64,000 bases of DNA from Clostridiaceae bacterium (GTDB lineage: Bacteria > Bacillota > Clostridia > DSM-8532), in the NCBI GenBank assembly GCA_012521105.1, contig JAAYNA010000107.1:62001-126000 (forward strand), written 5' to 3'. The notes under the pieces were generated by a model that saw nothing but the letters and a program-made list of their open reading frames with translations, searched no databases and was not told the DNA's origin. The position numbers and the translations under genes are program-made. Numbering within the stretch: position 1 is the first letter of the stretch; every line of letters begins with the position of its first letter. This document shows, in pieces, positions 8,714 through 19,456 of the stretch.

Positions 8714-9032
8714 TAAATATTCAGGATACAGAACATACTATGAAGGAGTTAAGTAGCATATTCCCGCTTTAACCAGAGAGGGGATGTCGGAGGCTGAAAG
8801 CATCCCTTTAAATGGAATAGTGCGAATTTCCCTCCGGAGTAGCTTTTTTGAAACTTGCAGCGAAGCTATAAACGAGTTTTCAGCTTTCTTCAAATGTGGC
8901 TTCGGTTCTTTAAGAAGTAGAAAAAGCCGGTTTCCCACCGTTAAAAGGGGTAGAGTGTACACGGTAAATTCTGTGTAAACATAGGTGGTACCGCGGAGTA
9001 TTGCTTCGTCCTATTTTGGACGAGGCTTTTTT
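8714..9032 (+). ncRNA. T-box riboswitch, phenylalanine-specific, upstream of pheST
   Basis: The T-box core AGGTGGTACCGCGG lies at 8983-8996. A terminator hairpin follows (GCTTCGTCC/GGACGAGGC, about 9003-9025) with a T-run at 9026-9032. The Stem I region shows the AGTA and specifier-loop features, and GAATTTCC at about 8824-8831 offers TTT or TTC (Phe) as specifier. Uncharged tRNA-Phe would stabilise the antiterminator and allow read-through into pheS. The segment between Stem I and the antiterminator is rather long. Identification is firm; exact 5' end and specifier frame are inferred. Confidence 0.95.
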
Positions 9033-10151: not shown

Positions 10152-12530
10152 ATGAAAGCACCTATTTCCTGGTTAAAGGATTATGTAAATATAAATGTAG
10201 ACATAGAAAAGCTTGCCGAGCTGTTAACTCTTTCGGGCAGTAAGGTAGAGGCCGTTGAAGACCTGGGAAAGTCTATTGAAAATGTAGTTGTAGGCAAAAT
10301 AGTCTCAATGGATAAGCATCCAAATGCAGATAAGCTGAAGGTTGCTCAGGTTGATGTAGGAAAAGAAGTTATTCAGGTTGTTACAGGCGCTCCTAATGTT
10401 CAGGTAGGAGACTATATACCCGTTGCCCTTGTGGGGGCACATCTTCCGGGAGGAAAGATTAAAGCGTCAAAATTAAGAGGTGTTGAGTCCTATGGAATGA
10501 TGTGTTCAATAGAAGAACTCAATTTAACCAGTGATTATTTGCCCGATGCACCCGAAAACGGGGTATATGTATTTCGCAATAAACCTGAAGTGGGCAGAGA
10601 TGTTAAAGAAGTATTAGGGCTTGAACCTGTTATTGAATTCGAAATAACATCAAACAGACCCGATTGCTTCAGTATTATTGGATTGGCACGGGAAGCTTCT
10701 GTAACATTATCCACCGATTTTAAAAAACCTGAAATTACTGTAAAAGAAGAAGGTAAAGGAAAGGCTTCGGATCATGCTTCGGTAGTGATCAAAAATCCTG
10801 AGCTTTGCAGCCGTTATGCTGCAAGAGTTGTTACAGATGTTAAAATTGAACCGTCCCCCGAATGGATGCAAAGACGCCTTGCAGCAGCGGGTATGAGACC
10901 TATTAATAATATAGTTGACATAACAAACTATGTAATGCTTGAGATGGGACAGCCAATGCATGCATTTGACCTGGAATGTGTGGACGGAGGGAATATAATT
11001 GTCAGAACAGCAAGGGACGACGAAGTAATTACAACGCTTGACGGGCAAAAGCGCCAGCTTGATTCTTCAATGCTTGTGATAGCAGATGAAAATAAACCCG
11101 TAGCAATTGCTGGAGTTATGGGCGGTGAGAATTCTGAAGTGACATCCGGAACCAGAATGATTTTACTTGAGTCGGCCAACTTCAATGGAACTTCTGTAAG
11201 ACTTACAGGTAAAAAAGTTGGAATACGGAGCGAAGCCTCGAATCGTTTCGAGAAGGGGTTGGATGTTGAAAATGTTATACCGGCTCTTAACCGTTGTGCA
11301 CAACTGATTGAAGAATTGGGAGCCGGAAAGGTTGTTCCCGGAATTGTTGATTGCTATCCGGTTAAATCTGAAACCGTTGAAATTGAACTGAATGATAAAG
11401 AGATAAACAATTTGCTTGGCACTGATATCAAAAGGGAATGGATGTTAGATCTGTTTGAAAAACTTGAGTTTGGTGTGGACAGAGATTCGGGAATATTAAC
11501 TGTTCCGTCTTTTCGTGCCGATGTCCGCGTCCAGGCTGATTTGGCTGAAGAAGTGGCCCGCTTTTATGATTATAATAATATTAAACCAACCCTTTTGTCA
11601 GGAAAGTCTTCAACTCTCGGAAGAAAGACCTACAGCCAGAAGATGGAAGATTTGATTATACAGCAGATGCTCTCCTTTGGCCTGTATGAAACCTATACAT
11701 TTTCATTCACAAGTCCGAAGGTCTGGGATAAAATGAGACTGCCAAAGGAGCACGAACTTAGAAATGCTGTTGTTATAACGAATCCCCTGGGTGAAGATTT
11801 CAGTATTATGAGAACAACTACCATTCCCGAAATGCTTGGTGTATTGAAAACAAATTATAACAGAAAAGTTGAGGATGGTCGTTTCTTTGAAATATCATAT
11901 GTGTACAGACCGATAGAAGGCCAGATGCTACCTGAGGAAAGGAAAGTGCTGACAATCGGGCTTTACGGAAATACCGACTTTTATTACCTGAAAGGAATAA
12001 TTGAGCAGTTGTTTGCTCAAATGAATATTAAAGACGCAGATTTTTCACCCGAAAAAAATCATCCTGCCTACCACCCGGGCAGATGTGCAAGGGTTACAAT
12101 TGGTAATACAGCAACAGGTTATATAGGAGAAATACACCCAGAGGTTGCCGATAATTTTGAATGCCCGGCCAGAACTTATATTGCTGTGCTGGATATAAAG
12201 ACAATGATTGAGAATTCAAACATGACAAAAGAATATAAAGGCCTTCCGAAATATCCGGCAATAGTAAGGGATATAGCATTAGTAGTTAAAAACGAGATTC
12301 CCGTAAAGGATATTGAAGCGGTGATCAGACAGTTTGGAGATACCATTCTTGAGGAAATAAAACTTTTTGATGTATATAAGGGCGAACAGGTACCTGAGGG
12401 TATGAAGAGTGTAGCCTACACTTTAACATTCCGTTCACCCGATAAGACACTTACCGATGATGAAGTAAACAGGGTAATGGAAAATATACTTAATGGGCTT
12501 AAAACAGACTTGAATGCAACATTAAGGTAA
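10152..12530 (+). CDS. pheT: Phenylalanine--tRNA ligase beta subunit
   Basis: The 792-residue beta subunit has the standard bacterial order. An EMAP-II/YtpR-like tRNA-binding domain spans about residues 40-150, followed by B3/B4 editing domain (about 210-380), B5 DNA-binding-like domain (about 400-475), a catalytically inactive class II core (about 485-690) and a C-terminal ferredoxin-fold anticodon-binding domain (about 700-792, 'YKGLPKYPAIVRDIALVVKNE' onward). The editing domain clears Tyr mischarged onto tRNA-Phe. It is cotranscribed with pheS and ends at a strong terminator. Confidence 0.98.
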   Translation: MKAPISWLKDYVNINVDIEKLAELLTLSGSKVEAVEDLGKSIENVVVGKIVSMDKHPNADKLKVAQVDVGKEVIQVVTGAPNVQVGDYIPVALVGAHLPGGKIKASKLRGVESYGMMCSIEELNLTSDYLPDAPENGVYVFRNKPEVGRDVKEVLGLEPVIEFEITSNRPDCFSIIGLAREASVTLSTDFKKPEITVKEEGKGKASDHASVVIKNPELCSRYAARVVTDVKIEPSPEWMQRRLAAAGMRPINNIVDITNYVMLEMGQPMHAFDLECVDGGNIIVRTARDDEVITTLDGQKRQLDSSMLVIADENKPVAIAGVMGGENSEVTSGTRMILLESANFNGTSVRLTGKKVGIRSEASNRFEKGLDVENVIPALNRCAQLIEELGAGKVVPGIVDCYPVKSETVEIELNDKEINNLLGTDIKREWMLDLFEKLEFGVDRDSGILTVPSFRADVRVQADLAEEVARFYDYNNIKPTLLSGKSSTLGRKTYSQKMEDLIIQQMLSFGLYETYTFSFTSPKVWDKMRLPKEHELRNAVVITNPLGEDFSIMRTTTIPEMLGVLKTNYNRKVEDGRFFEISYVYRPIEGQMLPEERKVLTIGLYGNTDFYYLKGIIEQLFAQMNIKDADFSPEKNHPAYHPGRCARVTIGNTATGYIGEIHPEVADNFECPARTYIAVLDIKTMIENSNMTKEYKGLPKYPAIVRDIALVVKNEIPVKDIEAVIRQFGDTILEEIKLFDVYKGEQVPEGMKSVAYTLTFRSPDKTLTDDEVNRVMENILNGLKTDLNATLR

Positions 12531-15822: not shown

Positions 15823-15851
15823 TTGACTGATGCTAATTTCCATAGTAATAT
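15823..15851 (+). promoter_or_regulatory. Sigma-A promoter of the leuA T-box transcript
   Basis: TTGACT (15823-15828), 17-base spacer, TAATAT (15846-15851). It lies immediately upstream of the T-box leader. Confidence 0.75.
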
Positions 15852-15857
15852 ATCATC

Positions 15858-16227
15858 AAATATCTAAAAACTGTGAAGGGGAATAGTAGATACCCGGAAC
15901 CTTTCAGAGAGCTGTTGGCTGGTGTGAAACAGCAGGGGAATGGTATTGAACTGGCCCTGGAGTTGCCGTCTGAAATCTATAGTAGGACCGGACGAAAGCC
16001 CATCGTTATCAGGGCAGGATATCGGTACGATTGACCTGTATCTGGATTGAAAAAGAGTGGTTTATTAATCCTTCGTCTCTTTTGGCGAAGGTTTTTTTGT
16101 AGAATCAGTCATAGCATCAGGGAAGATCTATCGGTATCTGAATGAGTGTATTCCGAAAGGAATAAAAAAGAGTGGTACCGCGGAACAACCTTCCGTCTCT
16201 TTAGCAGAAGAGGCGGAAGGTTTTTTA
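15858..16227 (+). ncRNA. T-box riboswitch, leucine-specific, with two terminators, upstream of leuA
   Basis: Stem I lies at about 15870-15980 and includes AGTAG and 'GAACTGG', giving CTG (Leu, 15951-15953) as the probable specifier. The distal part exists twice. Copy 1 (about 16008-16098) has AGAGTGG but lacks ACCGCG and ends in terminator CCTTCG/CGAAGG plus seven T (16070-16098). Copy 2 (about 16116-16227) has the canonical AGTGGTACCGCGG (16171-16183) and the terminator at 16187-16227. Both copies begin with ATCAGGG followed shortly by TATCGGTA, so a tandem duplication is visible in the sequence. Leu control fits the downstream leuA. Confidence 0.93.
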
Positions 16228-16271: not shown

Positions 16272-17927
16272 ATGAACTGGAAAAAATACAAAAAACATCC
16301 ACAATTTATTCTGGAAGACAGGACATGGCCCAATAACACAATTGATAAAGCCCCCATATGGTGCAGCGTTGACTTAAGAGACGGCAATCAGGCACTGCCC
16401 GTCCCGATGAGTGTTGAGAAAAAACTAAGGATGTTCAACCTTCTGAAAAAGATAGGATTTAAGGAAATAGAAGTAGCTTTCCCGTCAGCTTCGAATACCG
16501 ACTTCCGCTTTGTTCGCAGAATTATTGAAGGCTTTTTGAACGATGATATCACTATACAGGTTTTAACGCAATCAAGAGAACATTTGATTAGAAGAACATT
16601 TGAGTCACTTGAAGGAGCAAAGCAGGCAATAGTACATTTGTACAACTCGACTTCAGAACAACAGCGCCGTATTGTTTTTAAGAAGGATAAACCTGAAATT
16701 ATAGATATTGCTGTCGAAGGGACAAAGCTGATAAAACAGTTAAGCCAAAACTGTGATACCGATATCCGCTTTGAATATTCACCTGAAAGCTTTACCGGTA
16801 CCGAAATGGACTTTGCCCTCGAAATATGTGAAAGGGTATTGGACATATGGCAGCCAACCCCGGAGAAGAAAGCTATAATTAACCTTCCTGCAACCGTTGA
16901 GATGACTACTCCAAATGTATATGCAGATCAAATTGAATGGTTCTGCAGAAATATCAGCTGCAGAGATAGCGTTATAATAAGTGTGCATACCCACAACGAT
17001 CGGGGAACCGGAGTGGCTGCAACAGAGCTGGCCATGCTTGCTGGTGCCGATCGGGTGGAAGGCACCCTTTTTGGAAATGGTGAAAGAACCGGAAACCTTG
17101 ATATAATAACAGTGGCGCTAAACCTCTTTTCCCAGGGAATTGATCCCGAACTTGATATTTCGGACATAAACTCAATAATAAAAACCTATGAGGAATGCAC
17201 CGATCTGAAAGTACATGAAAGACACCCTTATGCCGGGCAACTGGTCTTTACTGCCTTTTCAGGCTCTCACCAGGATGCAATTAATAAAGGTTTCAGATAT
17301 TTAAGGGAACAAAAACCCGAATACTGGGATGTACCGTACCTTCCAATAGATCCGACAGATATAGGAAGGCAATACGAAGCCATTATCCGCATAAACAGCC
17401 AATCAGGTAAAGGTGGAGTGGCGTTTATTATGGAGCATGAATTTGGATATATACTTCCAAAAGAGATGCATCCTGAATTTGGAGTAATGATCAAACAGAA
17501 ATCTGATGAAACAGGCAGGGAACTGTCACCTGATGAAATTATGGATGTATTCAGAGAAAATTATTTAAACGCTACCGGTCCCTACAAACTGGTAGATTAC
17601 CGGATTGAAAGCAGAAGCGAATCGGTAACAATAAGTGCACGAATATACAAAAATAATGAATTACTTGAGATATCAGGAAAAGGAAACGGACCCATTTCTG
17701 CATTCTTTGATGCACTGAAAGGTGCCAGTGCTTCGAAATATCGTTTTGAAGCCTATTCCGAGCATGCTCTTTCGAGTGGTGCAGATGCTGAAGCCGTAGC
17801 TTACATACAACTGGCTAACGGTGGAGGAAAAAGCGTTTTTGGAGTAGGAAAGGACAGAAATACTACCACTGCATCCTTTGAGGCGATAATTTGTGCACTG
17901 AACAGGGCTGTTGCCGGGAATAATTAA
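16272..17927 (+). CDS. leuA: 2-isopropylmalate synthase (long, type 2 form)
   Basis: The 551-residue protein catalyses the first committed step of leucine synthesis, joining acetyl-CoA and 2-oxoisovalerate. The DRE-TIM metallolyase barrel begins with 'WCSVDLRDGNQAL' (about residues 29-41; the R-D pair is catalytic) and carries the metal-binding 'HTHNDRGTGVAATELAMLAGADRVEGTLFGNGERTGN' region as two short motifs near residues 240-275. The C-terminal ~120 residues are the LeuA regulatory domain that binds leucine. The N-terminus resembles the LeuA of actinobacteria and yeast rather than the E. coli form. The start follows AAAGGAGG. No other leu genes follow within the window; a terminator closes the unit. 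Confidence 0.96.
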   Translation: MNWKKYKKHPQFILEDRTWPNNTIDKAPIWCSVDLRDGNQALPVPMSVEKKLRMFNLLKKIGFKEIEVAFPSASNTDFRFVRRIIEGFLNDDITIQVLTQSREHLIRRTFESLEGAKQAIVHLYNSTSEQQRRIVFKKDKPEIIDIAVEGTKLIKQLSQNCDTDIRFEYSPESFTGTEMDFALEICERVLDIWQPTPEKKAIINLPATVEMTTPNVYADQIEWFCRNISCRDSVIISVHTHNDRGTGVAATELAMLAGADRVEGTLFGNGERTGNLDIITVALNLFSQGIDPELDISDINSIIKTYEECTDLKVHERHPYAGQLVFTAFSGSHQDAINKGFRYLREQKPEYWDVPYLPIDPTDIGRQYEAIIRINSQSGKGGVAFIMEHEFGYILPKEMHPEFGVMIKQKSDETGRELSPDEIMDVFRENYLNATGPYKLVDYRIESRSESVTISARIYKNNELLEISGKGNGPISAFFDALKGASASKYRFEAYSEHALSSGADAEAVAYIQLANGGGKSVFGVGKDRNTTTASFEAIICALNRAVAGNN

Positions 17928-19302: not shown

Positions 19303-19376
<74 letters not shown>

Positions 19377-19379
19377 TTT

Positions 19380-19456
<77 letters not shown>

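Follow-up and report, generated by a model that had tools for sequence, protein, structure and literature searches.

The DNA analysed here, a window of 64,000 nucleotides from a Clostridiaceae bacterium (contig JAAYNA010000107.1, positions 62,001 to 126,000), raises the question of why the leader of its leuA gene should carry two terminators behind a single tRNA sensor, and whether tRNA can open the first of them. The leader (15864-16226 of the window; its features and leuA lie on the forward strand) is a T-box with one Stem I, Stem II, Stem IIA/B and two diverged terminator/antiterminator modules, here called copy 1 and copy 2. The original prediction held that normal pairing with tRNA could not relieve the first terminator, as copy 1 has lost the ACCGCG of the T-box. 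We come to a different view: the first platform most likely remains an antiterminator opened by tRNA, reduced to helix A1 and UGGU and facing a weaker terminator than that of copy 2.

The anatomy can be read directly. In a covariance model search the Rfam T-box model RF00230 matched 15864-16203 with 142.2 bits (E 1e-31; gathering cut-off 93), and its alignment skips copy 1 by means of an insertion of about 125 nt that separates the CGUUA of Stem IIA/B from Stem III. The two copies are nevertheless homologous. Their local alignment scores 57, against 17.7 ± 3.0 for dinucleotide shuffles (maximum 30 of 1000), and still 37 when the terminators are left out (shuffles 15.3 ± 2.9, maximum 34). A terminator scan recovered stems at 16070-16091 and 16187-16222, two where 0.4 were expected. 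Thus the tandem distal modules on one Stem I, each closed by a hairpin and T-run, are as originally described, and the leader belongs with T-boxes that have duplicated terminator–antiterminator elements, as do its counterparts (12 genomes in all). The proposed coordinates also hold, except that ATCAGGG does not mark the start of both modules: the functional copy 1 module starts slightly further 3', because its ATCAGGG includes the 3' strand of the Stem IIB pseudoknot, and the ATCAGGG of copy 2 is not retained in most relatives. Searched separately with the T-box model, copy 2 scores 38.5 bits and copy 1 gives no match even at E 10; other Rfam families yielded only sub-threshold chance matches in copy 1 alone.

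What remains in copy 1 is a short, ordered set of elements. A linker helix, CAGGAUAUCGGU / ACCUGUAUCUGG (16015..16045), has 98% of its cells paired in 10 sequences, with one two-sided change. It is followed by AAAAGAGUGGU (16051-16061), which comprises the 5' strand of helix A1, AAAAGAG (16051..16057), and UGGU (16058..16061), the complement of the tRNA-Leu ACCA end. A spacer of 8 nt (16062..16069; 5-9 nt across leaders, unconserved) occupies the expected site of ACC and helix A2 (GCG), and terminator 1 then follows at 16070..16098 (CCUUCGUC-UCUUUU-GGCGAAGG and seven U; 8 bp, -12.5 kcal/mol). The 3' strand of A1, CUCUUUU (16077-16083), sits in the 5' arm and loop of terminator 1, so that the predicted A1 helix AAAAGAG/CUCUUUU and terminator 1 would compete for it; the complementarity is conserved. 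Copy 1 has no ACC, no helix A2 and no recognisable Stem III hairpin. There is no AGUG-hairpin-AA; the linker helix occupies the place of Stem III, and its purine-rich 5' flank doubles as a Stem IIB strand. The canonical discriminator, a 7-nt bulge UGGNACC with the G-U wobble of helix A2, is missing from copy 1 in 12/12 leaders. A substitute for A2 can be drawn by eye in only two of them (possibly ACG/CGU in L098 and AUG/CGU in L099), which leaves no conserved helix. We also considered a pseudoknot between A1 and the terminator 1 loop, but by reasoning only, the short GG linker and a shared C make its coexistence with full A1 unlikely.

Copy 2, by comparison, is canonical and keeps ACCGCG, as the original prediction had it. 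Its linker (16113..16145) is a diverged repeat of that of copy 1, as judged by alignment against shuffles, and the RF00230 alignment places behind it Stem III with its AGUG...AA flanks (16145..16166) and an antiterminator (16167..16202, -9.8 kcal/mol) composed of A1 AAAGAG/CUCUUU, the bulge UGGUACC and A2 GCGGA/UCCGU. Terminator 2 (16187..16226, also found by the scan) has about 16 bp and a U-run. The match to tRNA is equally direct: the genome encodes a tRNA-Leu(CAG) whose sequence ends in CGC-ACCA (A73-CCA), and the UGGU of both copies is complementary to this ACCA 3' end.

Is this arrangement kept in relatives? A LeuA protein search covering 61 genomes found a close orthologue (67-100% identity) in 12 of them, the window's own genome counted; they fall in five genera of its family (g1, g3, g4, g5 and g6), and comparable records that carry a name come from Thermoclostridium sp. 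and Clostridiaceae metagenome-assembled genomes. A covariance model built on copy 1 (R1) gave strong matches, of 71-101 bits, in exactly these 12 genomes. The next best match within the family reached 33.6 bits, and nothing else exceeded 34 bits in 391 Clostridia genomes; weak matches outside the five genera were rejected as further cases, being mostly ordinary single T-boxes. ACCGCG is absent from copy 1 in 12/12 leuA leaders, and AAAAGAGUGGU is invariant in all of them (10 aligned sequences together with L100 and L133). No column of the spacer or the linker loop is invariant in the 10-sequence alignment. If UGGU were as free to vary as these, the chance of its conservation would be 1.4e-4 (four UGGU columns against about 18 loop and spacer columns), a rough figure that ignores phylogeny. 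The hairpin and U-run of terminator 1 are kept in 10/10 leaders folded, at -10.1 to -19.5 kcal/mol.

The claim that tRNA cannot open terminator 1 is therefore unsupported, because it is with UGGN that the tRNA 3' end pairs, and copy 1 keeps this as UGGU, along with the A1 strand, in 12/12 leaders. The ACC, the A2 helix with its G-U wobble and Stem III stabilise the tRNA complex and reject charged tRNA (PMC7583486); copy 1 may accordingly bind weakly, aided by the tethering of tRNA on Stem I, or discriminate charging poorly. Because UGGU lies outside terminator 1 and adjoins freely varying sequence, pairing with the tRNA end is, we believe, the best account of its conservation. The conservation of AAAAGAG points to a kept antiterminator, since its only evident partner is the CUCUUUU that spans the arm and loop of terminator 1.

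It is on this ground that we consider it unlikely that copy 1 terminates partially and constitutively, blind to tRNA, and merely lowers the basal level of leuA. The original prediction allowed for a partial block of this kind, as well as for a response to something else or an alternative fold. The absence of A2, ACC and a recognisable Stem III would suit such an element, as would the computed energies, in which terminator 1 is far more stable than the fold with A1 only (-12.5 versus -4.3 kcal/mol), but it would have no need for AAAAGAGUGGU, which is invariant next to a variable spacer. The energies can also be read differently. In copy 2, terminator 2 has -25.3 kcal/mol against -9.8 for its antiterminator, and with UGGU forced open the ensemble gap between terminator and antiterminator amounts to about 8.5 kcal/mol in copy 1, as against 14.0 in copy 2. 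Published gaps average 12.8 for the T-boxes of aminoacyl-tRNA synthetase genes and 7.8 ± 3.5 for alaS (PMC3375634); the modelled gap of copy 1 is therefore within the range of working T-boxes.

A poorer candidate, which we regard as improbable, is a timing element, in which the hairpin and U-run pause the polymerase, seldom releasing it, so that tRNA has time to load on Stem I ahead of the synthesis of copy 2. A short hairpin with 6-7 U right behind the tRNA-binding domains is what such a pause site might look like. Pausing alone, however, requires no UGGU. The long stem of -19.5 kcal/mol that one leader (L102) carries at this site resembles a real terminator. We give still less credence to the proposal that terminator 1 is opened by something else, for example by a protein or by an alternative fold in which the conserved linker helix CAGGAUAUCG/UGUAUC takes part. 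This helix is strongly conserved in sequence, its CAGGAUAUCG strand being invariant, but a helix is likewise present at this place in L106, an ordinary single leuA T-box from a more distant relative, and the retention of UGGU would be left unexplained. Least plausible is a duplicate in decay that no longer has a function: parts have indeed been lost, and copy 1 falls below detection by the Rfam T-box model, but the same losses and the same kept residues recur in five genera with LeuA identity down to 67%, and 51 of about 82 positions of copy 1 are invariant.

We therefore return to a platform that is opened by tRNA, and hold it to be the better-than-even reading, from sequence comparison, that the leader works as a serial two-step T-box, in which tRNA-Leu bound to Stem I opens first the reduced and then the full antiterminator. 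Uncharged tRNA-Leu(CAG) would dock on Stem I through the CUG specifier, and its ACCA end would pair with the UGGU of copy 1, stabilising a reduced antiterminator in which A1 (AAAAGAG/CUCUUUU) closes an open loop that lacks A2. This would prevent terminator 1. Once copy 2 has been synthesised, the same tRNA end, or another tRNA, would engage the full UGGUACC/A2 antiterminator and prevent terminator 2. Read-through into leuA would require both steps, giving lower basal expression and a steeper response than a single platform. The anatomy, its conservation, the match to tRNA and the computed order of hairpin energies are shown here; termination at terminator 1, its opening by tRNA and a multiplicative effect of the two steps are what we infer. 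The layout conserved across five genera is probably such a working checkpoint, and not a broken copy.

Some observations weigh against this interpretation. Helix A1 of copy 1 is nearly invariant, and hence offers no covariation that would prove it as a helix; copy 1 as a whole varies little and has one pair with two-sided change, a level of covariation that 41/500 shuffles equalled. In addition, an alternative hairpin in the window, GGAUUGA...UUAAUCC (16041-16069), can hold part of the A1 strand, with UGG in or near its loop, and by this folding may compete with A1. It surrounds AGAGUGG, and only the GGA/UCC part of its pairing recurs in relatives.

A bolder version of the two-step reading, possible though we would not bet on it, assigns different tasks to the two platforms. 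Without the steric sieve provided by the G-U wobble of A2 and the purine string of Stem III, the first platform might test occupancy by tRNA-Leu with little regard to charging, and the second would test charging. If true, the leader would proofread tRNA in two stages on one Stem I, and its first platform would be a natural minimal antiterminator without A2.

How does the leader compare with known systems? It shares with the transcriptional T-box of RF00230 a Stem I with a Leu specifier, Stem II, Stem IIA/B, the antiterminator and terminator of copy 2 and an amino acid synthesis gene downstream, but has an extra, reduced platform that follows Stem IIA/B and precedes Stem III. In their RF00230 alignments the nine other T-boxes of the genome all lack an insertion of the size of a second platform before Stem III. 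T-boxes with duplicated terminator–antiterminator elements were reportedly described by Vitreschak et al. in 2008 (RNA 14:717). We searched the 391 Clostridia genomes for two T-box motifs 80-110 nt apart, and then with a looser pattern; downstream genes were named from translated sequence. The first search found one Stem I with two complete platforms upstream of an ilvN-like gene (L169, with GC-rich terminators) and of a sodium symporter-like frame (L170). The looser pattern added three two-platform leaders, each with one Stem I, in family f59, upstream of argC-like (L176) and argG-like (L177 and L178) genes, in which the first platform always has UGGUAACGCG and the second UGGUACCGCG. A further match (L171) was discarded as chance, since it begins inside Stem I. 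Because these cases are independent, duplicated platforms have arisen several times. All five share with the leuA leader the order of one Stem I and then two platforms, but their first platform keeps ACCGCG or AACGCG (A2) after UGGU, whereas here UGGU alone remains. No description of the leuA leader arrangement was found in the literature searched, and its distinguishing feature beside the five cases above, the consistently A2-less first platform, is probably a new variant.

Serial terminators that read the same ligand are also found where complete T-boxes or other riboswitches stand in tandem (PMC12452182, PMC9481103). For complete T-boxes in tandem, a steeper, pseudo-cooperative response is expected (PMC12452182). 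In the leuA leader the sensor Stem I is single, so one docked tRNA could serve both platforms; by analogy, the pseudo-cooperative logic may carry over to two platforms with a shared sensor. In Bacillota, leuA is among the genes enriched for contiguous T-boxes. The first platform would be a natural, evolutionarily kept antiterminator without A2, ACC or a recognisable Stem III, parts thought necessary for binding tRNA and rejecting its charged form. It thus bears on the minimal needs of an antiterminator, and on steeper or two-stage control by serial platforms on one sensor. Since the Rfam model returns a single ordinary T-box for such leaders, with the extra platform hidden in an insertion, others may have been overlooked.

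The upstream part of the leader is conventional. The RF00230 alignment places Stem I, with its AGAGAG and GGUG motifs, at 15864..15964 and Stem II, with the GAA...AGUA S-turn, at 15965..15991. The specifier codon, identified by its position following the conserved GAA, is CUG (Leu; 15951..15953), and is CUG or CUC, both Leu, in 12/12 leaders (CUC in L094 and L102). The Stem IIA/B pseudoknot (15993..16015; CGA/UCG and GCCC/GGGC) was assigned from sequence and the comparison of the 12 leaders, and its IIB pairing is compensated in L102, which has GCUC/GAGC instead of GCCC/GGGC. A candidate sigma-70 promoter, TTGACT-17-TAATAT (15823..15851), is a consensus match only (9/12), from a scan that found 3 where 2.1 were expected by chance. 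The leuA open reading frame (16272..17927), supported by homologues, encodes a 2-isopropylmalate synthase of 551 aa, the product being named from recognisable sequence. Two adjacent tRNA genes lie downstream of leuA (19303-19373 and 19380-19453). A second T-box in the window (8731-9016, 119 bits) stands upstream of a pheT-like gene (10152-12530), and its specifier region, UUC/UUU, is consistent with Phe.

In one of the 12 genomes (G012) the leuA leader (L133, reverse strand) and leuA itself (L011) are on separate contigs. Just past the U-run of terminator 2, L133 has an apparent group II intron 5' end (GUGCGCCCAGCAUGGGCGCA...); a group II intron 3' end (L011:50-126, RF00029, 46.7 bits) stands at the start of the leuA contig. 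These sequences suggest an intron inserted right after the T-box terminator, a behaviour reported for group IIC introns (PMC9481103). A leader from the same genus (L097) has an apparent empty intron site.
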